Of a DNA stretch of 64,000 nucleotides, positions 35,500 through 50,201 are shown one piece after another. A program made the translations under genes and the position numbers. Every line of letters begins with the position of its first letter. The stretch's first letter is position 1. Below the pieces are notes generated by a model that was given only the letters and a program-made list of their open reading frames with translations, was not told where the DNA came from and searched no databases. Origin of the DNA: a virus; the IMG/VR virus record IMGVR_UViG_3300025418_000694, positions 1-64,000 of that record, one strand, 5' to 3'.

Positions 35500-35543
35500 C
35501 TGAGAATAGTCTGAGAATAGTCTGAGAATAGGCTGTGAATAAT
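35500..35543 (+). repeat. 11-bp direct-repeat array A (4 units)
   Basis: CTGAGAATAGT at 35500, the same at 35511, CTGAGAATAGG at 35522 and CTGTGAATAAT at 35533, in exact 11-bp register. It lies directly upstream of the GGGAAT box. It is probably an operator array for a tandem-binding regulator. Confidence 0.85.
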
Positions 35544-35547
35544 GGGC

Positions 35548-35574
35548 GGGAATAAATAGGTGATAGGTTTGGTT
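35548..35574 (+). promoter_or_regulatory. ECF (SigR/SigH-type) promoter A, before the sigma gene
   Basis: GGGAAT at 35548-35553, 18 nt, GTT at 35572-35574. This equals the consensus known for SigR/SigH sigma factors. It precedes the phage ECF sigma gene, so the sigma factor probably activates its own transcription. Confidence 0.8.
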
Positions 35575-35616
35575 CACTAAGCAAGTGAGCAAGGGGCTCA
35601 CTGATAGGGGTACAAA

Positions 35617-36111
35617 ATGGACAAGGCACAACTAAGCAAGGACATACTAAACTATCAAGGGATGCTTTATGGTTACGCCATGAAACTAACTAATGGCAAT
35701 TCACATGACTCTCTCGATTTGGTACAGGATACTTTCGAGAAAGCGCTCGCTAATAGTGAGAAGTTTGACGGGGCTAATCTTCAAGCGTGGCTTCACACTA
35801 TCCTCCGCAATCAATTCATCAACGTTTACCGCAAGCAGTCTCGCATGGTAGTGGCTGATGAAACCGCGCTAGTGGAATTAGAAACAGAAACCGCGCCTAG
35901 CGCAGAGTACCGCGCAATTTTCAATCACTTTTCGCCTAAAGTCTCTCAAGCCTTACAGGCTCTAGGGGATGACTTTCTAAAGGTTGTCTACCTAGTAGAC
36001 ATAGAGGGTTTCACTTATGAGGAAACCGCTAATCAACTAGGCGTTAAAACCGCCACAGTAGGCACACGCCTAAACCGCGCACATAAGGTTCTAAGGGAGG
36101 CTCTAGCATGA
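35617..36111 (+). CDS. ECF sigma factor of the SigR/SigH type (164 aa)
   Basis: Region 2 is at about residues 15-75: GMLYGYAMKLTNGNSHDSLD, DLVQDTFEKALANSEKFDG and NLQAWLHTILRNQFINVYRK. Region 4 is at about 115-163: KVVYLVDIEGFTYEETANQL, then GVKTATVGTRLNRAHKVLRE. The AWLxxILxNxxINxYRK and VYxxDxEGFxYxE strings are hallmarks of the SigR/SigH subgroup. There is no anti-sigma RsrA-like zinc gene nearby; a 30-aa membrane peptide is coupled instead. ATG has AGGGG upstream. It probably directs host RNA polymerase to promoters A-E in this window. Confidence 0.85.
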   Translation: MDKAQLSKDILNYQGMLYGYAMKLTNGNSHDSLDLVQDTFEKALANSEKFDGANLQAWLHTILRNQFINVYRKQSRMVVADETALVELETETAPSAEYRAIFNHFSPKVSQALQALGDDFLKVVYLVDIEGFTYEETANQLGVKTATVGTRLNRAHKVLREALA

Positions 36112-36226: not shown

Positions 36227-36263
36227 CTCTCGATTCCCCGTAGGGGTATGGGGAGGGTGGGCC

Positions 36264-36332: not shown

Positions 36333-36365
36333 CTGAGAGATTCCTGAGAATTATCTGGAAATTAC
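36333..36365 (+). repeat. 11-bp direct-repeat array B (3 units)
   Basis: CTGAGAGATTC (36333), CTGAGAATTAT (36344), CTGGAAATTAC (36355), in 11-bp register before promoter B. Confidence 0.85.
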
Positions 36366-36369
36366 CTTA

Positions 36370-36396
36370 GGGAATAATAACCAACCCTAACCCGTT
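36370..36396 (+). promoter_or_regulatory. ECF-type promoter B
   Basis: GGGAAT at 36370-36375, 18 nt, GTT at 36394-36396 (within CCCGTTATACAGG). It serves the three-gene operon from 36438. The last 11-bp unit starts 15 nt before the -35 box. Confidence 0.8.
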
Positions 36397-36437
36397 ATAC
36401 AGGTACAAGGTCGGAAACGCCGACAAAAGGGGAAAAA

Positions 36438-37445: not shown

Positions 37446-37489
37446 CTGAGAGATTTCTGAGAATTGGCTGAGAATTGCCTGGAAATAGC
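37446..37489 (+). repeat. 11-bp direct-repeat array C (4 units)
   Basis: CTGAGAGATTT (37446), CTGAGAATTGG (37457), CTGAGAATTGC (37468), CTGGAAATAGC (37479), in exact 11-bp register. Confidence 0.85.
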
Positions 37490-37492
37490 GGC

Positions 37493-37519
37493 GGGAATAA
37501 ATTGGGGTTATGAGCCGTT
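37493..37519 (+). promoter_or_regulatory. ECF-type promoter C
   Basis: GGGAAT at 37493-37498, 18 nt, GTT at 37517-37519 in GCCGTTATACAGATG. The downstream CCGTTATACAG is nearly identical to promoter B. Confidence 0.8.
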
Positions 37520-37563
37520 ATACAGATGAATAGCCACACGGGTTATTCGGGAAAGGTAATCAA

Positions 37564-38089: not shown

Positions 38090-38114
38090 GGGGCGGGAAT
38101 AAAAAGCCCGCCCC
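38090..38114 (+). terminator. Terminator with GGGGCGGG stem
   Basis: GGGGCGGG at 38090-38097 pairs with CCCGCCCC at 38107-38114. A terminator with the same A-rich loop style recurs at 39703. It separates the 41-aa gene from the HTH gene, which has its own GGGAGG ribosome site and may depend on partial read-through. Confidence 0.65.
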
Positions 38115-38143
38115 AATCGTTACAGCAACAGAAGGGAGGAAAC

Positions 38144-38601: not shown

Positions 38602-38611
38602 TGTTTGTGTT
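38602..38611 (-). repeat. AACACAAACA box 3 (inverted)
   Basis: TGTTTGTGTT on the plus strand, followed by GAACCCGCCCGCCCAC. Together with box 4 it brackets a 63-nt segment holding a palindrome. Box 5/6 repeats this arrangement. Confidence 0.65.
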
Positions 38612-38649
38612 GAACCCGCCCGCCCACATGCCTGAAGGGAATAAGCCAA

Positions 38650-38676
38650 TTGGACAATTGTTAAACAATTGTCCAA
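38650..38676. repeat. 27-bp perfect palindrome 1
   Basis: TTGGACAATTGTT at 38650-38662, one A, then AACAATTGTCCAA at 38664-38676. It overlaps the first bases of box 4. Could be an operator or a replication/recombination site, or form a cruciform; there is no U-run. Confidence 0.75.
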
Positions 38677-38684
38677 CACAAACA
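38675..38684 (+). repeat. AACACAAACA box 4
   Basis: Directly overlaps the right arm of palindrome 1 and is followed by TTCCTAGCCC. Box 6 has the same relation to palindrome 2. Confidence 0.65.
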
Positions 38685-38697
38685 TTCCTAGCCCAAA

Positions 38698-38741
38698 GTG
38701 AACATTAGGTGAACATTACCTGAGAGAAACCTGTGAATAGA
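38698..38741 (+). repeat. 11-bp direct-repeat array D (4 units)
   Basis: GTGAACATTAG (38698), GTGAACATTAC (38709), CTGAGAGAAAC (38720), CTGTGAATAGA (38731). It mixes two unit types in one 11-bp register, linking the GTGAAC type to the CTGAGA type. Confidence 0.85.
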
Positions 38742-38744
38742 GAT

Positions 38745-38771
38745 GGGAATAATGAGAGGGTAGTATCCGTT
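38745..38771 (+). promoter_or_regulatory. ECF-type promoter D
   Basis: GGGAAT at 38745-38750, 18 nt, GTT at 38769-38771 in ATCCGTTCTAC. It serves the genes from 38820. Confidence 0.8.
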
Positions 38772-38819
38772 CTACTATTGAAAGCGAAACCAACCAAGCG
38801 CTTTCAGAATAGGACAAAA

Positions 38820-39203
38820 ATGAACACAACTGACACTCTTACAGTATCAAACGAGTTTACTGTAGGCGAACTATGGGAAGCAGTCTGGGGCTGTGACGGA
38901 GCGGGCATGGTCTATTGGTGCTCTAAAATCCGCACTCCAGAAGGCAAGGACATCTATCTTTTCCTCAACAAAGGTGATGAATTTGTCCCCAACCCTCAAC
39001 CTGTCAAAATTTATGACACGACAGGCGTTACTCCTAAAACCTACGTGGTAACTGTCGAGGATTTGCGCCGAGGCTACGAACTAGCACTCAAAGCAGGTCA
39101 GACACATTGCGGAGGTTATCCTCTAGAAATTGACGACGCCGACTCCTGTTTCGGTGACATGGTTATACAGTACGCAATCTTTAACGAATTAGTCTACGGA
39201 TAG
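38820..39203 (+). CDS. Hypothetical protein (127 aa)
   Basis: Start taken at ATG 38820 (MNTTDTLTVSNEFTVGELWE), since the earlier in-frame GTG lies in the promoter. Contains GMVYWCSKIRTPEGKDIYLF and LRRGYELALKAGQTHCGGYP. Acidic and apparently globular, single domain. A similar YxLALxxGQxHCGG shape occurs in unnamed phage proteins. Unknown function. Confidence 0.65.
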   Translation: MNTTDTLTVSNEFTVGELWEAVWGCDGAGMVYWCSKIRTPEGKDIYLFLNKGDEFVPNPQPVKIYDTTGVTPKTYVVTVEDLRRGYELALKAGQTHCGGYPLEIDDADSCFGDMVIQYAIFNELVYG

Positions 39204-39214
39204 GAAGGGAAAAC

Positions 39215-39349
39215 ATGAGCGAAGTAGTATGGCAGAGCCAAATCACAGAGGACATGGTTCAAGATGTAAGCGCCCGTTCGTTCTTATTTGAGGAATTGGA
39301 CGACGCGGTAATGCGAATTTGTCAGGAATACGGGGTAAAATCCCTATGA
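39215..39349 (+). CDS. Mini-protein (44 aa)
   Basis: Begins MSEVVWQSQITEDMVQDVSA after GGAAGGGAAAAC and ends EYGVKSL. Acidic helix. Its stop overlaps the next ATG as ATGA. Confidence 0.55.
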   Translation: MSEVVWQSQITEDMVQDVSARSFLFEELDDAVMRICQEYGVKSL

Positions 39350-39492
39350 GCCGTAGACACTTTCGCGCCCTAGCCGAAGCCCTAAAGGACTCAGGCGCTA
39401 GTTATCAGACTGTGGCTGCTATTGCTAGAGTCTGTGCCAATGAAAACCCAAGATTTGACTCCTCTAAGTTCTTTGAGGCGTGTGGCGTATGA
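39346..39492 (+). CDS. Mini-protein (48 aa)
   Basis: Begins MSRRHFRALAEALKDSGASY, then VAAIARVCANENPRFDSSKF. Basic helix with a Cys-containing end. Such short proteins are common in actinophages, with no known role. ATGA overlaps on both sides. Confidence 0.6.
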   Translation: MSRRHFRALAEALKDSGASYQTVAAIARVCANENPRFDSSKFFEACGV

Positions 39493-39656
39493 CTACCTAT
39501 AACACAGTAGTGCGCTTATACGCCTCAATAGAGGCAGAAACAGAGGAACAAGCAGAGTCAAGACTCCATGACTACATGAATAGCGTGGGTCTAGTTCCTA
39601 GTAATTGCGTTGTAGTCGCCGATTATGACGTAACAGACTTCGACAAGGAGGATTGA
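39489..39656 (+). CDS. Small protein (55 aa)
   Basis: Begins MTTYNTVVRLYASIEAETEE, then AESRLHDYMNSVGLVPSNCV. A beta-alpha-beta pattern with an acidic end. Coupled by ATGA to the gene before. Unknown function. Confidence 0.6.
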   Translation: MTTYNTVVRLYASIEAETEEQAESRLHDYMNSVGLVPSNCVVVADYDVTDFDKED

Positions 39657-39702
39657 CGGAGACTAGCCGAGCCTGTCCTAGCCGTAATTGTATCCGTCAA
39701 GG

Positions 39703-39728
39703 GCGGTGGGAAGTAAAAAGCCCACCGC
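39703..39728 (+). terminator. Terminator with GCGGTGGG stem
   Basis: GCGGTGGG at 39703-39710 pairs with CCCACCGC at 39721-39728, with loop AAGTAAAAAG. It ends operon D. Confidence 0.7.
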
Positions 39729-39756
39729 TATACAAAAAGCGCGGAAATGTCTAAAT

Positions 39757-39766
39757 TGTTTGTGTT
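39757..39766 (-). repeat. AACACAAACA box 5 (inverted)
   Basis: TGTTTGTGTT on the plus strand followed by GACCCACCCACCCAC. Matches box 3, which has GAACCCGCCCGCCCAC next to it. Confidence 0.65.
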
Positions 39767-39798
39767 GACCCACCCACCCACGTACCTAAATACGACAT

Positions 39799-39823
39799 CT
39801 TATTCCGCAATAAGCGGAATAAG
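39799..39823. repeat. 10-bp inverted repeat
   Basis: CTTATTCCGC at 39799-39808 pairs with GCGGAATAAG at 39814-39823 around AATAA. It occupies the place between the inverted box and the palindrome. Confidence 0.65.
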
Positions 39824-39826
39824 CAT

Positions 39827-39855
39827 TTGGGCTAATTGTTTAACAATTAGCCCAA
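39827..39855. repeat. 29-bp perfect palindrome 2
   Basis: TTGGGCTAATTGTT at 39827-39840, one T, AACAATTAGCCCAA at 39842-39855. It shares the central AATTGTT(N)AACAATT with palindrome 1 and overlaps box 6 in the same way. Confidence 0.75.
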
Positions 39856-39863
39856 CACAAACA
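39854..39863 (+). repeat. AACACAAACA box 6
   Basis: Overlaps the right arm of palindrome 2, followed by TTCCCGCCCC. Confidence 0.65.
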
Positions 39864-39876
39864 TTCCCGCCCCAAG

Positions 39877-39942
39877 ATGAACATTAGATGAACATTAACT
39901 GAGAGATTGCTGAGAGATTACTGAGAGAAGGCTGAGAGCCAA
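39877..39942 (+). repeat. 11-bp direct-repeat array E2 (6 units, no ECF promoter)
   Basis: ATGAACATTAG (39877), ATGAACATTAA (39888), CTGAGAGATTG (39899), CTGAGAGATTA (39910), CTGAGAGAAGG (39921), CTGAGAGCCAA (39932). No GGGAAT follows. Instead a TATAGT at 39945-39950 and a long hairpin lie just after it. Confidence 0.8.
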
Positions 39943-39973
39943 TCTATAGTAGAGTGAGAGTCTGCTATAGATT
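39941..39973 (+). ncRNA. Possible structured RNA start: 12-bp hairpin
   Basis: AATCTATAGTAG at 39941-39952 pairs with CTGCTATAGATT at 39962-39973 (one G-U), loop AGTGAGAGT. It lies directly after a six-unit repeat array and before 100 nt without a gene. It may be the start of a small RNA, a terminator (an A-run follows, not a U-run), or an operator. Confidence 0.35.
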
Positions 39974-40089
39974 AAAAATGGACACGCCTTCGGCTACTGT
40001 CTAAAGAACGAAGTGAGAGTGTAGCGATACGTCCAGATTATTGCTATATGTCCGATTTGTCTTATATGATAACAATCTCTGCGATTACT

Positions 40090-40122
40090 GTTCACCTTCC
40101 GTTCACCTTCCGTTCATCTACT
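40090..40122 (+). repeat. PHO-box-like 11-bp array E (3 units)
   Basis: GTTCACCTTCC at 40090 and 40101, then GTTCATCTACT at 40112. GTTCACC in 11-nt direct repeats is the published PhoP-binding PHO box of Streptomyces. It lies in the same phase to the -35 box as arrays A-D. Confidence 0.75.
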
Positions 40123-40125
40123 TAG

Positions 40126-40152
40126 GGGAATATATATCTACTCTATTCCGTT
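40126..40152 (+). promoter_or_regulatory. ECF-type promoter E
   Basis: GGGAAT at 40126-40131, 18 nt, GTT at 40150-40152. The last PHO-box-like unit begins 14 nt before the -35, as in C and D. It drives the AAA/VWA operon. Confidence 0.8.
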
Positions 40153-40211
40153 CTATCCATGTACGACAAACACTAACCGCGCCAATGGCGCACTATTAGA
40201 AGGAAGGCAGT

Positions 40212-41591
40212 ATGACACTAGCAGTATTGGTGGAGACCTTAGAGGGCGAAGCGCGCTCACAGACTCTCCTATTCCCTCACAAGGGAGAAGTGCGGATTTA
40301 TCACCGCCTCTCAACAGGTCAGGCAGGACGTGGACAGACATGGTCTCACCTATCTGATATAGAGGATTTGCCCGACACTCTCCTATCCAAGAAACCCGTA
40401 GCCGTTGTCCTCACCGAGCGCGATACTGCTCTCGTTGATACAGGACTCGTTACCAATATCGGTGCTAAGGCTCTCTATGCCTATGAAAGTGCCGACCCTG
40501 TTACCGCGCCAATCTCACACAGAGATAGCGTTCTAGACCTTAAAACTCGATTCGAGTCAGGAGACAACTCTCTCTCTGATTTGATTACCGATAAACGTCG
40601 TAATCAGGGTGTAATTCTAACCCCGTTGAGCGCGACCCCGAACGTGACCTTTATTAAGCAAAGTGAGCCTATCAAGCAAGAAGTAACAATAGGCGCACAC
40701 GAAAGCACACGTCTCGCCTATGAAAATATGATTACTGTTCCCGACCAAAAGTGGTCACGTGATTATATAAACCGCTACTTTGAGGACGGCAAGTCCGACT
40801 TCGAGATTTATGACTACGCAGATTCTAACGATATAAACGTTCTAATCGAAGGTGGCGCTGGTTCAGGCAAGACCATGAGTGTAATCGCCTATGCCTCTGC
40901 TAGACAGAAGCGTTATTTCAACGTCTCCTCTAATGCTGGTATTGACCCTAGCCAACTATTCGGGCGCTGGATTCCTAGAGAGGACGGACATGGTTATCGC
41001 TGGCAGGACGGCGCAGTCACTCTCCTAGTTCGACATGGCGGAGTTCTACTCCTCAATGAAGTGAACTTCATGCCCGAACGTATTATGACAGTTCTCTATT
41101 CCTTACTAGATGACCGACGTGAGATTCAATTATTGGATAACGGCGGTGAGGTTATTAAGGCTCACAAAGACCTGCTAATCGTGGCAGACATGAACGCTGG
41201 TTATCGTGGCACTCACGAACTATCACAGGCTAACAATGACAGGTGGAAAATTAAACTAGAGTTTCCTTACGATAAGAAAATCGAAAGCAAACTAATCAAG
41301 TCTAAGGCTCTGCTGGAATTGGCTCAAAAGTTACGTGACCGATTCGACCTAGATGAACTCACAACTCCAATCTCGACACGTGGTCTAGTAGCACTACAAA
41401 ATAACGTGACGGGTCTAGGCTTGAACTTCGCAATTACTTCTTACGTCAATGGATTCGACAAAGATGAACGCGTGGCAGTTCGTCAGGTAATCGAAACAAT
41501 GAAGTGGAATATCGCAACCGACTTCGGTGTAAAGGTTGAAGTCGAACCTACAGATTCAATCGTAACCGAGACAGTAAAGGTGGATAACTAA
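40212..41591 (+). CDS. MoxR/CobS-like AAA+ ATPase (459 aa)
   Basis: The first 200 residues form a variable N-terminal part. Walker A is EGGAGSGKT near 213-221 and Walker B is GVLLLNEVNFMPE near 277-289. Sensor-1 is LIVADMNAGYRGTHELSQA, followed by an RWKIKLEFPYD segment. This is the MoxR/CobS type, which partners VWA proteins as chaperone, chelatase or maturation machines. The VWA gene starts 2 nt downstream, so the two are one unit. Cyanophage CobS homologues are a precedent for phage-encoded versions. Confidence 0.85.
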   Translation: MTLAVLVETLEGEARSQTLLFPHKGEVRIYHRLSTGQAGRGQTWSHLSDIEDLPDTLLSKKPVAVVLTERDTALVDTGLVTNIGAKALYAYESADPVTAPISHRDSVLDLKTRFESGDNSLSDLITDKRRNQGVILTPLSATPNVTFIKQSEPIKQEVTIGAHESTRLAYENMITVPDQKWSRDYINRYFEDGKSDFEIYDYADSNDINVLIEGGAGSGKTMSVIAYASARQKRYFNVSSNAGIDPSQLFGRWIPREDGHGYRWQDGAVTLLVRHGGVLLLNEVNFMPERIMTVLYSLLDDRREIQLLDNGGEVIKAHKDLLIVADMNAGYRGTHELSQANNDRWKIKLEFPYDKKIESKLIKSKALLELAQKLRDRFDLDELTTPISTRGLVALQNNVTGLGLNFAITSYVNGFDKDERVAVRQVIETMKWNIATDFGVKVEVEPTDSIVTETVKVDN

Positions 41592-41592
41592 T

Positions 41593-43551
41593 ATGGGTCG
41601 CCGTCGCCGTCGCAATAATGGACTAATCTCTGAATTGGATTCCCTATCCACAGGACGTGGACTCCATGAACGTATCAACGATAACAATGAGTGGGAACTC
41701 TATGATGAGGAAAGCGGTTTAGCAGTAACCCATGCCGAACTAGTCGCAAAATACACAGAGCGCGCTAACCGACTCAATGCGGTGGCACAGGTGTACGAAC
41801 GTGTAGATAGGATTCTCACCAATGAGGATATTACTGTTCGTGTAATCAACGATAAGAATATGGATACCAATGCCCGTTCCAATGGAAAGGATATTGAACT
41901 CAATGCCAATCTAATTGAGGATTTATCTGACGAAAGTATTATGAGCCTTCATGGTCTGAACTATCACGAACTAGCGCACGTGGAGTTCTCTCCCCGTCAG
42001 GGTTCAGACTTAGGAATATACGTTCGCGATAATAAACTGTTTAAGGCAATCGCAATTCTAGAGGAAGGTCGCGCTGAACAATTACTGCTCAAAAAGTATC
42101 CTTCAATTCGACCTTACCTAGAAGCAAGTGTTTATACCTACGTGTTAGCAGACCAGCCTAGTGATTGGGGAACTAAGTTTCATCTAATCACAGGTCGCAC
42201 CTACTTACCACTAGAAATTAGGCAATCTATTCTAGACAAAGCAATCGTTCAATACGGATATGAAATTGTCTCCAACGTTCACTCGATTATCCATGCCTAT
42301 CGTGACTTAGTGTTCCCTGCTGATTTCGATAAGGCTAAAGAACTCGCACACAGACTCGCCAATATACTCGGACATGATGAGGATTCTAATAATTCAGGTT
42401 CAAGTTCTAGTGAAGGTTCAGAGGAGTCTAAGGACTCAAAAGGTATCACAGGTGTAGGCGGTGGGTGCGGTCTGCCTAGTAAGGGCAGACCAGCAAGCGG
42501 AAAGGAGCAGGCTAAGTATCAAAGCCAGCCCTCTAATGATAAATTAGAAAGCCTCAACACAAACAGGTCGCAAAGCGATAGCGGTTCAGGTAGCGAAATT
42601 GAAACTCAATCGGTCAATGATTCAGATTCAGAAATTACTGCCAAAGATGTTGAAGTGGCTCATGCTCTCAATGAGCGCATGAACCAACTAAAGCAGGACT
42701 CTCGCGTTAAGCGCGAAGTCAAGGACACTCGAAATGCGATTCTCGGTTCAGGTGAGGCTAAGGCTGATATTCCAACAGGTGACACTATGGAAATCGCACC
42801 TTCTATGGGAGCAATCTCAATGGCAAAGCGATTCAGCACAGAGTTAGAACGCATAGTGCGAAACAATGACCCTGCTTGGGTAGGTCGCACTAGAAGTGGT
42901 CGCCTGAATATCTCTCGCACCATGAACCCTGATGTCAATGCTATCTCTGAAATGTTCGACCAATGGGATATTGGTAATGAAGCCACCGATATAGAAGCGG
43001 TTATCCTTACCGATAATTCAGGTTCAATGGGCGGTTCAATGAAAGCAGTATGCGAGAACACTTGGATTCTAAAGCGCGCTATCGAAAGCATAGAAGGTTC
43101 AGTAACCGCCTTCTCCTTCGATTCTGATACTGAACTGCTCTACTCTAAAGATGATAAGGCTAAGTCTAGAGTAATGAAGTTCGTGGGTTCACGTGGAAGC
43201 ACTAACCCACTACGCGGAATTATCGAAGCAGACCGCATATTGACCTCATCTAAAAAGTCAATCAAGATTCTATTTATAGTTACTGACGGGGATTGGGAGC
43301 GCCAAGAACAATGCGACGACCTAATCAAGTCTATGAACAATAAGGGATTCCTGACGTGCGTAGTGTTCTTAGGTGATTTCAAGTCCTATCAGAACCTAAT
43401 CGAGCAGTCTGCTAGAGGTGATGACCGCGCTACTAATTACTTAAAGGCAATACGTCACCACGCCAAAGTGTTCCACGCTGTTACCAACACCGCAGATATT
43501 CTCAAAGTGGCAAGTATGCTAGTCAAATCAACTCTAAAGAAGGTGGCTTAG
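41593..43551 (+). CDS. VWA-domain protein with HExxH motif (652 aa)
   Basis: The N-terminal domain has LNYHELAHVEF near residues 123-132, an HExxH signature typical of zinc peptidases. A Ser/Gly-rich acidic linker lies at about 265-370. The C-terminal VWA domain has VILTDNSGSMGGSMKAVC near 472-489, a MIDAS DxSxS, then LFIVTDGDWERQEQCDD. This arrangement matches DUF2201/CobT-like proteins that pair with MoxR ATPases. The pair could act as a protein- or metal-remodelling complex. Which substrate is unknown. Confidence 0.8.
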   Translation: MGRRRRRNNGLISELDSLSTGRGLHERINDNNEWELYDEESGLAVTHAELVAKYTERANRLNAVAQVYERVDRILTNEDITVRVINDKNMDTNARSNGKDIELNANLIEDLSDESIMSLHGLNYHELAHVEFSPRQGSDLGIYVRDNKLFKAIAILEEGRAEQLLLKKYPSIRPYLEASVYTYVLADQPSDWGTKFHLITGRTYLPLEIRQSILDKAIVQYGYEIVSNVHSIIHAYRDLVFPADFDKAKELAHRLANILGHDEDSNNSGSSSSEGSEESKDSKGITGVGGGCGLPSKGRPASGKEQAKYQSQPSNDKLESLNTNRSQSDSGSGSEIETQSVNDSDSEITAKDVEVAHALNERMNQLKQDSRVKREVKDTRNAILGSGEAKADIPTGDTMEIAPSMGAISMAKRFSTELERIVRNNDPAWVGRTRSGRLNISRTMNPDVNAISEMFDQWDIGNEATDIEAVILTDNSGSMGGSMKAVCENTWILKRAIESIEGSVTAFSFDSDTELLYSKDDKAKSRVMKFVGSRGSTNPLRGIIEADRILTSSKKSIKILFIVTDGDWERQEQCDDLIKSMNNKGFLTCVVFLGDFKSYQNLIEQSARGDDRATNYLKAIRHHAKVFHAVTNTADILKVASMLVKSTLKKVA

Positions 43552-48164: not shown

Positions 48165-50201
48165 TTACTGATTGTCTTTAATCAGTTTAACTTCACACGC
48201 GTCTGTCGTACAGTAAGCCTCTCCAACTGCGTCATAAGCCATGCCAGCGTACACGCCAGCAAAGTCTATTGGAAAGAGAGTCATACGATAATTCTCATAA
48301 TCATCTTCAGTAATTTGAGTGTAAGGCATTTGGTTATAGACCATGTTTCCTGAAGGTAAGAAAGAGATAGTCTTTAATTGACCGTCATACAAATGTAGAA
48401 CAGTTCCAACATCTTTAGATTCCGACTCTGGATTAAAAGAGACAGTTACAGAGACAGAATTGTCACTCCAATAACGTTGAGCTGTGGCAGCTAGAGCTAC
48501 CTTTTCATAGATAGAGACATCTTTCTCAGAGCGTTTAGCATTAGATTTGACTGGAAAGTAGACTACAGAGGTAGTATCAGGAGATTCCATAGCAGGTTCT
48601 ACTTTATATTGAGCCATCTTAAAGAGAGGAAGCATTGGATCATTGTTTCCAAAGCGGATGGCACGTAGGAAGTATTCTCCACCAACAGACCAATGAACTC
48701 CTGGACTCTCACCTGCCAAGATAGAGACAGTTCCCGAAGGCTTTACAGTTGTAGTCTTAATTGACTCACGGATACCAAGCCACTCTGAATAGCCCTTGTC
48801 ATAACTTTGGATAGTGCCGTAGCCCTCATCCATCCATTGACGCAAGGCTGGTAGCCCTTTGTTATCTGCGAAGTTAGCCACACCTGACATGGAAGTTCCA
48901 ATACGGCGATTGCGTTGCATGATTGCGTTAGTCTCTTCCCAGTGAGTAGGCAGGAGAGTGACTGTCTTGGCATAGAGATAGGCAAACTTAAGAGTTCGCT
49001 TAAAGTCATCTAAAGAGTCATGGCGGTTGAGATAAGTCTCAACGAGCGTACAACACTCATAGGATTCAAGAGACTGTTCGGCACATGGGTTATATCCAGA
49101 AGCGCGCCAGTCTTTATTGTTGATTGGGTCAGCCAAGCGACCATACTTACGAGTGACATCCATCCAGATAACCCCAGGCTCACCATTGAGGGCAATGCCA
49201 TCAATAATAGAATCCAAGTTATCGCCAACATTTACCTCTACGGAGTTGTTAGACATCCAAGCCCAGCCAGGCTTATCAGCATCGTAGGAGTTTCTTTTTG
49301 GGAATACTTTAGGGTTCTTTAGATTTAAGAAGGTTTGATCATCCAGTCTACCCATTAGAAGCTCAGCTGAGCGGCGGACGTTACCAGAGACCACGCATAC
49401 TCCGATTAGGTTACCCAAATCAGCAATGTCTACTCTAGAAAGCTTCTCTCCAGCCTTATTCTTGAATATAGAACGGATGTGCTTGTGTAATCTTTCAAGA
49501 GGCTCTGGGCCTGCAGCTGTGCCGCCAAATGTTTTGATTGGAACGCCTGCTGGACGTACTAAACTGTAATCAAACTTATACTTAGGCTGGTCTGGCTTTA
49601 GATACGAGTTGATTAGCAAAGCAACAGACTCAACCCATCCCTCACGGGTATCAGCTACCTGGTATACCGCCTCCTCATCAGTTGGCTGGTAAATAGTAAA
49701 GTCTTTATCAGCACCCTTGTCATCAAAGCCAACACCCACACCTAGCATTGAGGCTTCCATTAGGAAGGCAAATGGCTTGGCTGGATCGTTCTTTGTCATA
49801 GACGCAGTTGATACAAAAGAACAGTTTTGGAGAGCTGCTGAATTGCGCTGCTCATTTACAAGGGGAGTTCCCATTACCCATAGACCGCGTCCTGGTGGAG
49901 TCCACTTTAGAGTAAACAAGCGGTCAAAGGCTTCTTTAGCAGAAGCTTGAGCTTTAGAATCATTCCAAGGAAGACGGTTGGTTTTGCAATGGTCTTTCTG
50001 TAGAGAATACATACCGTTGATGACTCTCTCACAGACATCTACCCAAGTCTCTTTTGTGCCGTCCTCTTTAAGTCTAGAGTAGGTTCTAAGGAAGGTAATC
50101 TCACCGACTGAGTTTCCAGCGGCATCTTGATAGCCCCAAGGGACTTTCTTAGACCGATAACCTGAGACGAATTCCTCTGCTAGACGAAAGGACAATGCCA
50201 T
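48165..50201 (-). CDS. nrdJ: Class II (B12-dependent) ribonucleoside-triphosphate reductase (678 aa)
   Basis: Converts ribonucleotides to deoxyribonucleotides using adenosylcobalamin. ALQNCSFVSTASM near residue 126 carries the first redox Cys. GYNPCAEQSLESYECCTLVE near 360 carries the second redox Cys, catalytic NPCxE and the radical Cys. TVKPSGTVSILAGESPGVHW near 486 is the nucleotide-binding loop. The C-terminal YCTTDACEVK has the CxxxxC that receives reducing electrons. The single-chain Lactobacillus leichmannii-like form is common in actinophages. It needs oxygen-independent B12 supply from the host. Confidence 0.9.
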   Translation of the reverse strand: MALSFRLAEEFVSGYRSKKVPWGYQDAAGNSVGEITFLRTYSRLKEDGTKETWVDVCERVINGMYSLQKDHCKTNRLPWNDSKAQASAKEAFDRLFTLKWTPPGRGLWVMGTPLVNEQRNSAALQNCSFVSTASMTKNDPAKPFAFLMEASMLGVGVGFDDKGADKDFTIYQPTDEEAVYQVADTREGWVESVALLINSYLKPDQPKYKFDYSLVRPAGVPIKTFGGTAAGPEPLERLHKHIRSIFKNKAGEKLSRVDIADLGNLIGVCVVSGNVRRSAELLMGRLDDQTFLNLKNPKVFPKRNSYDADKPGWAWMSNNSVEVNVGDNLDSIIDGIALNGEPGVIWMDVTRKYGRLADPINNKDWRASGYNPCAEQSLESYECCTLVETYLNRHDSLDDFKRTLKFAYLYAKTVTLLPTHWEETNAIMQRNRRIGTSMSGVANFADNKGLPALRQWMDEGYGTIQSYDKGYSEWLGIRESIKTTTVKPSGTVSILAGESPGVHWSVGGEYFLRAIRFGNNDPMLPLFKMAQYKVEPAMESPDTTSVVYFPVKSNAKRSEKDVSIYEKVALAATAQRYWSDNSVSVTVSFNPESESKDVGTVLHLYDGQLKTISFLPSGNMVYNQMPYTQITEDDYENYRMTLFPIDFAGVYAGMAYDAVGEAYCTTDACEVKLIKDNQ

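Follow-up and report, generated by a model that had tools for sequence, protein, structure and literature searches.

In Streptomyces, two 11-nt direct repeat units suffice for, and are required by, binding of PhoP to the PHO box, in which the seven bases GTTCACC are conserved (PMC6988585). Control of phage genes by the host Pho system is already known in cyanophages; phages controlled in this way frequently carry a phosphate auxiliary gene, yet such a gene is dispensable, as seen in S-PM2d, which is without PstS. Predicted Pho boxes were unreliable in S-PM2d, where some are unbound by PhoB (PMC10976474), and by analogy these unbound boxes are the main caution for the PHO box discussed below. 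The box of C. glutamicum PhoR reads CCTGTGAAaatCCTGTGAA (PMC3353115), and promoters of the SigH/SigR type follow the consensus GGAAt-N17-18-cGTT (PMC10012870). The literature searched did not describe a PHO box for any actinophage.

The PHO array and the AAA/VWA operon

The window, i.e., the whole stretch of 64,000 nt analyzed in this work, belongs to a virus record of 95,817 nt with a GC content of about 44% (41–47%). The phage terminase is 53% identical to that of Streptomyces phage BRock, and the window encodes a WhiB protein. Together with an ECF sigma factor, these features identify the virus as an actinophage. From GC content, WhiB and the relatives found in aquatic metagenomes, its hosts likely belong to the Nanopelagicales (acI). 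The 95.8-kb record, which is possibly incomplete, contains no PhoB-type DNA-binding domain (PF00486, Trans_reg_C). A phage-encoded PhoB-type regulator was hence rejected, and the regulator would be that of the host. Neither PstS nor PhoH was detected in the phage record.

The PHO array occupies positions 40090–40122 on the plus strand and consists of three 11-nt units, GTTCACCTTCC at 40090–40100, GTTCACCTTCC again at 40101–40111 and GTTCATCTACT at 40112–40122. The first-pass annotation had described three tandem units in 11-nt register resembling the Streptomyces PHO box, and both statements were borne out. All three GTTCAYC units keep the exact register, and the 22-mer of the array did not occur in any of 100 dinucleotide shuffles, even with three mismatches allowed. 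GTTCAYC-N4-GTTCAYC occurs three times in the 95,817-nt record, each time in the intergenic region of the AAA operon, with two overlapping pairs within the array (plus strand) and one pair at 39876–39893 (minus strand); the backwards-read control pattern was absent from the record. By itself, the heptamer GTTCACC shows no enrichment in the phage (9 observed, 6.1 expected), so the signal lies in the tandem register. A matrix derived from the pstC promoters of Nanopelagicales gives its best match in the record at the array, with 38.3 bits over all 33 positions, spacers included, compared with a native leave-one-out median of 36.6 bits; 10 of 22 native sites equal or exceed the score of the array. 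Elsewhere in the phage no independent site scores above 9.1 bits, and the maximum in shuffled genomes is 9.5 bits. The array thus shows the at least two 11-nt direct repeats with GTTCACC core of an actinobacterial PHO box and scores as native boxes do in the presumed host order. By its sequence, it is a native-quality box of a host-type phosphate regulator. The evidence at the DNA level is strong, and regulator binding, the direction of the effect and the host are inferences.

Three nucleotides downstream of the array begins a SigH/SigR-type ECF promoter (40126–40154, plus strand), composed of GGGAAT at 40126–40131, a 17-nt spacer and CGTTCT at 40149–40154. Its earlier assignment as an ECF promoter ahead of a MoxR-like/VWA operon was upheld, as the record contains six promoters of this kind, this one included, compared with a mean of about 0.3 in shuffles. 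The operon starts with a MoxR/CobS-like AAA+ ATPase of 459 aa (40212–41591, plus strand; PF07728, 1e-18; phrog_249, 4e-42, a family labeled "porphyrin biosynthesis", i.e., CobS-like). It is followed on the same strand by a VWA-type partner of 652 aa (41593–43551), which gave no Pfam match and in which a DNSGS motif was read from the sequence. An adenosylcobalamin-dependent ribonucleotide reductase is encoded near this CobS-like AAA/VWA pair, at 48165–50201.

Further upstream, the reverse-oriented pair GTTCATC-TAAT-GTTCATC (39876–39893, minus strand) stands in 11-nt register with an adjoining CTGAGAG array of four 11-nt units, the distal array of module 5 (39899–39942, plus strand). A second, weaker reverse-oriented PHO-like pair, GTTCACC-TAAT-GTTCACT (13/14 positions), lies at 38697–38714 on the minus strand. 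The 39876–39893 pair, the CTGAGAG arrays and the sister promoters described below had not been part of the first-pass annotation. Downstream of the distal array and ahead of the AAA promoter lies a conserved block (GGCTACTGYC ... CCAGA ..., 39985–40075) without Rfam match, which occupies the same place in the otherwise diverged phages L004, L013, L074 and L245; an Rfam search of 39100–40400 returned only a chance snoRNA-like match (E 0.75). An imperfect hairpin, TGTTTGTGTTG...CAACACAAACA, is found upstream of promoter modules at 39757–39863 and 38602–38684, and its half-arm CAACACAAACA recurs at 36263 and 37396. TGTTTGTGTTGACCCACCC is present in 28 other IMG/VR contigs, in some of which no AAA gene follows; terminator, structured RNA or insulator are candidate roles for the hairpin.

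The SigH-type promoter family and its tandem arrays

All six matches to GGGAAT-N17-[CG]GTT[AC] in the 95.8-kb record are on the plus strand, between 35548 and 40154, and they agree with the SigH/SigR consensus. In addition to the AAA/VWA promoter these are module 1 (GGGAAT-N17-GGTTCA, 35548–35576), module 2 (GGGAAT-N17-CGTTAT, 36370–36398), module 3 (GGGAAT-N17-CGTTAT, 37493–37521), module 4 (GGGAAT-N17-CGTTCT, 38745–38773) and a promoter that lacks an upstream array (GGGAAT-N17-CGTTAC, 38095–38123). Module 1 precedes the gene of the phage ECF sigma factor (35617–36111, plus strand, 164 aa), which is closest to SigH. Among all NCBIfam models, TIGR02947 (SigH_actino) matched the phage sigma best with 108.7 bits, below the family cut-off of 251.6 bits, which makes it an ECF sigma but not a member of that family. 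Its nearest solved relatives are M. tuberculosis SigH (5zx2, 6e-22) and a SigH/SigE chain (6jcy, 2e-22).

Tandem 11-nt arrays lie upstream of five of the six promoters, and in each case the last unit starts 14–15 nt before GGGAAT. At four of the five promoters other than that of the AAA/VWA operon, the units are CTG(A/T)GAAT-like, and the AAA/VWA promoter has the PHO array in the same register. All four arrays are on the plus strand: four CTGAGAAT units in module 1 (35500–35543, upstream of the ECF sigma gene), three CTGAGAAT-type units in module 2 (36333–36365), four in module 3 (37446–37489) and two CTGAGAG/CTGTGAAT units in module 4 (38720–38741), the latter in register with the 38697–38714 pair.

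These sister arrays lead to a second host regulator. CTGWGAATNNNCTGWGAAT is scarce in host genomes (4 of 151 genomes, none for the control), and three of the four matches lie directly upstream of a two-component operon whose regulator is orthologous to M. tuberculosis PhoP (2e-88; PrrA next, 4e-52). When 30 genes of such PhoP-type response regulators were picked by protein similarity, a CTGWGAAT array (at least 13/16 positions) was present upstream of 24, as compared with 1 of 30 pstC genes. A matrix derived from these host sites and run on the phage record returned nothing but phage arrays among its top 12 matches. Modules 1–4 thus contain CTG(A/T)GAA-type 11-nt tandem repeats like those of the host sites, as expected for boxes of M. 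tuberculosis PhoP or C. glutamicum PhoR. Judged by sequence, the phage promoters would thus be fitted with boxes for two response regulators of the host, the phosphate-type box being that of the AAA/VWA operon.

The PHO code in the presumed host order and in related phages

Nanopelagicales genomes, among them those of IMCC19121 and Ca. Planktophila, were reached via an acI 16S probe. In 151 genomes, about 48 matches to the GTTCAYC pair were spread over 43, compared with about a dozen matches for the reversed pattern, and the genes downstream, with names read from translations, were pstC, pstS, phoU and a few other transporters. For 30 pstC genes chosen by gene family and independently of any box pattern, a three-unit GTTCACC array (at least 16/21 positions, within 200 nt upstream) was found at 23 and the reversed control at none; none of the 30 unrelated M. 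tuberculosis PhoP-type response-regulator genes had GTTCACC arrays. This supports the Streptomyces PHO code that had been proposed for the phage array. "Streptomyces-type" holds for the code of the box but not for the phage, an aquatic actinophage of about 44% GC. One genome, L359, has the exact core GTTCACCTTCCGTTCACC flanked by phoU-pstCABS on one side and by a divergent pair of sensor kinase and response regulator on the other, and this response regulator is RegX3 (PDB 2oqr, 2e-95; next best MtrA, 9e-61). RegX3 is the orthologue of Streptomyces PhoP. From the boxes at pst and phoU together with this RegX3 adjacency, it follows that the presumed host order uses the PHO code at its phosphate genes and possesses the regulator. 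In four genomes (L096, L100, L103, L105), PHO boxes are found not only before pst genes but also before the gene of a branched-chain-amino-acid-type binding protein, and the phosphate regulon of acI bacteria is possibly wider.

Relatives of the AAA gene, with 45–57% identity, are found in freshwater and other viral contigs. The first-pass annotation had suggested looking for the same box in related phages; among about 50 relatives the perfect array is present only here, and two relatives (L263, L272) have weaker distal PHO pairs. A PHO box as a general trait of AAA-operon phages was thus rejected. In the closest AAA relative, L245, and several others, CGTTATCNAAN tandem units take the position of the PHO array, and a related reverse-oriented pair lies further upstream of the AAA gene. 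Altogether, tandem arrays of CGTTATCNAAN were seen in L245, L007, L010, L013, L055, L057 and L072, either ahead of the AAA gene or within the same element. Distal and proximal sites are both GTTCAYC in this phage and both CGTTAT-like in L245, L007, L010 and L013, and this parallel change suggests that in each phage one regulator would serve both. Intergenic CGTTATC arrays of the host genomes, which those of the phages resemble, mostly precede genes of sugar-binding proteins and permeases (sugar ABC transporters) and also a ROK-type regulator. As a general host motif CGTTATC was rejected, being not enriched genome-wide over its reversed control, so that a link to carbon may serve as a lead only. 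Furthermore, a DnaA-box-like TTGTGGATAA is found near tandem arrays upstream of the AAA gene in L004, L016, L067 and L072 and was not seen at the corresponding position in the window.

Other actinophage-like contigs (L022, L037, L040, L052, L028, L048, L050, L039) also have PHO arrays of at least three GTTCAYC units. In L022 and L040 these are near an operon encoding a protein 47–51% identical to that of the phage gene at 70656–71186, together with a glutamine-amidotransferase-like gene. Across viral contigs, 34 have three-unit GTTCAYC arrays, as compared with 10 for the reversed pattern, a modest excess to which minisatellites contribute. Two scans of other IMG/VR contigs gave no match to the combined array and GGGAAT architecture. 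Neither PHO pairs nor CTGAGAA arrays were present in BRock (100 of 112.5 kb) or in the AAA loci of Gordonia phage Hanem and Brevibacterium phage Cantare.

Possible roles of the array and comparison with known systems

We consider it probable, from the sequence, that the array is a host-type PHO box through which the SigH/SigR-type phage promoter behind it is activated, and that phosphate shortage raises expression of the AAA/VWA operon. To judge from motif and homology, the phage ECF sigma would direct the host RNA polymerase to GGGAAT-N17-CGTT promoters. Four of the SigH-type promoters would carry tandem boxes of the host orthologue of M. tuberculosis PhoP and C. glutamicum PhoR; the host-derived matrix identifies the sites of modules 1–4, and the regulator is expected to bind there. 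The AAA/VWA promoter would be bound in the same register by the host phosphate regulator RegX3. Bound as tandem dimers immediately 5' of the -35 element, RegX3/PhoP~P may then contact polymerase or sigma, and AAA/VWA transcription would rise in the phosphate-short host. In agreement with this reading are the register beyond chance, the native-like matrix score, the common promoter architecture and the specificity for host genes (23/30 versus 0/30 for the PHO array, 1/30 versus 24/30 for the CTGWGAAT array). On the other hand, the PHO box is mostly missing in AAA-operon relatives, the architecture was not found in the other IMG/VR contigs scanned, and the phage record yielded no PstS or PhoH gene. 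Native pst arrays apparently lie nearer to the -10 element than the phage array, which is upstream of the ECF -35, a comparison made by eye.

RegX3/PhoP~P might also be a brake. A sigma-A-like promoter (TTGCTA-N18-TATGAT, 40041–40070) ends 20 nt upstream of the PHO array, and a regulator bound either downstream of this promoter, ahead of the gene, or next to the ECF -35 would repress the AAA operon during phosphate starvation, in analogy to some Streptomyces promoters that are repressed by PhoP (PMC6988585). However, the array is directly upstream of the ECF promoter and not over it, it shares its register with the four sister arrays, and sigma-70-like sites are not enriched around the AAA promoter (3 found, 1.7 expected); we regard repression as unlikely. 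Likewise, the 11-nt register is common to OmpR-type regulators, and in Streptomyces AfsR and PhoP bind overlapping GTTCA-type sequences (PMC6988585). AfsR/SARP, MtrA or another OmpR-type protein as the true user of the array is nevertheless quite improbable, given that the match to the pst-operon matrix from the presumed host order extends over units and spacers alike and that the same core lies beside the RegX3 two-component system in one genome. Finally, the 550-nt non-coding region before the AAA gene contains hairpins and several repeats, and in some viral contigs (L051, L049) GTTCACC minisatellites reach about ten units, as would suit replication iterons or a slipped minisatellite that takes no part in transcription. 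We find such an origin very hard to believe, in view of the fixed promoter spacing, the arrays of different sequence that occupy the equivalent position at the sister promoters and the likeness to native pst boxes across units and spacers.

Returning to activation by RegX3/PhoP~P, it appears that switches of two host environment-sensing systems sit before phage promoters, and the nutritional state of the host could set their expression. We may further speculate, with more doubt than confidence, that the whole ECF-sigma regulon is tied to two host two-component systems (five of six promoters, fixed distance to the -35), and that related phages exchange the operator type of the AAA/VWA operon (PHO here, CGTTATC in L245, L007 and L010), linking the same operon to different host nutrients. 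Nanopelagicales rank with the most abundant bacteria of fresh waters, and lake bacteria are often limited by phosphorus. If the promoters of a Nanopelagicales phage do respond to the phosphate sensor and to another two-component system of the host, lake phosphate would directly shape the infection programs of such phages, host-Pho control of phages would extend from cyanobacteria to Actinobacteria, and phage sigma and exchangeable host operators would form a modular scheme. Nanopelagicales hosts and their phages have now been isolated (PMC10202952), and the AAA/VWA promoter is thus testable in culture.

In comparison with the Streptomyces PhoP regulon, the phage array shares the GTTCACC core, the 11-nt register, three units and a position upstream of a promoter, and the same code is found at pst and phoU of Nanopelagicales. 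In contrast, the phage array precedes an ECF (SigH-type) -35 and the AAA/VWA operon instead of a phosphate gene. Modules 1–4, with CTG(A/T)GAATNNN in 11-nt register, resemble the C. glutamicum PhoR/M. tuberculosis PhoP box, and the host PhoP orthologue carries CTG(A/T)GAAT-type arrays before its own gene; the direction differs, as CTGAGAAT units run towards the gene in the phage and the opposite way at the host regulator gene. Like the SigH/SigR (TIGR02947) regulon, five of the six phage promoters have GGGAAT-N17-CGTT and the phage sigma is closest to SigH, whereas it scores under the family cut-off and its promoters carry response-regulator arrays. The PhoBR control of cyanophages (P-SSM2 pstS; S-PM2d, PMC10976474) likewise places a host phosphate-regulator box on phage genes, and in S-PM2d host PhoBR also governs genes without an obvious phosphate role. 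Cyanophages differ in host phylum and box sequence, and EMSA and transcriptome results are available for them. As far as our search reached, a PHO box joined with a family of SigH-type phage promoters and with another two-component system of the host is new, and this apparent coupling of an ECF promoter family to two host two-component systems sets the actinophage apart from the cyanophages.
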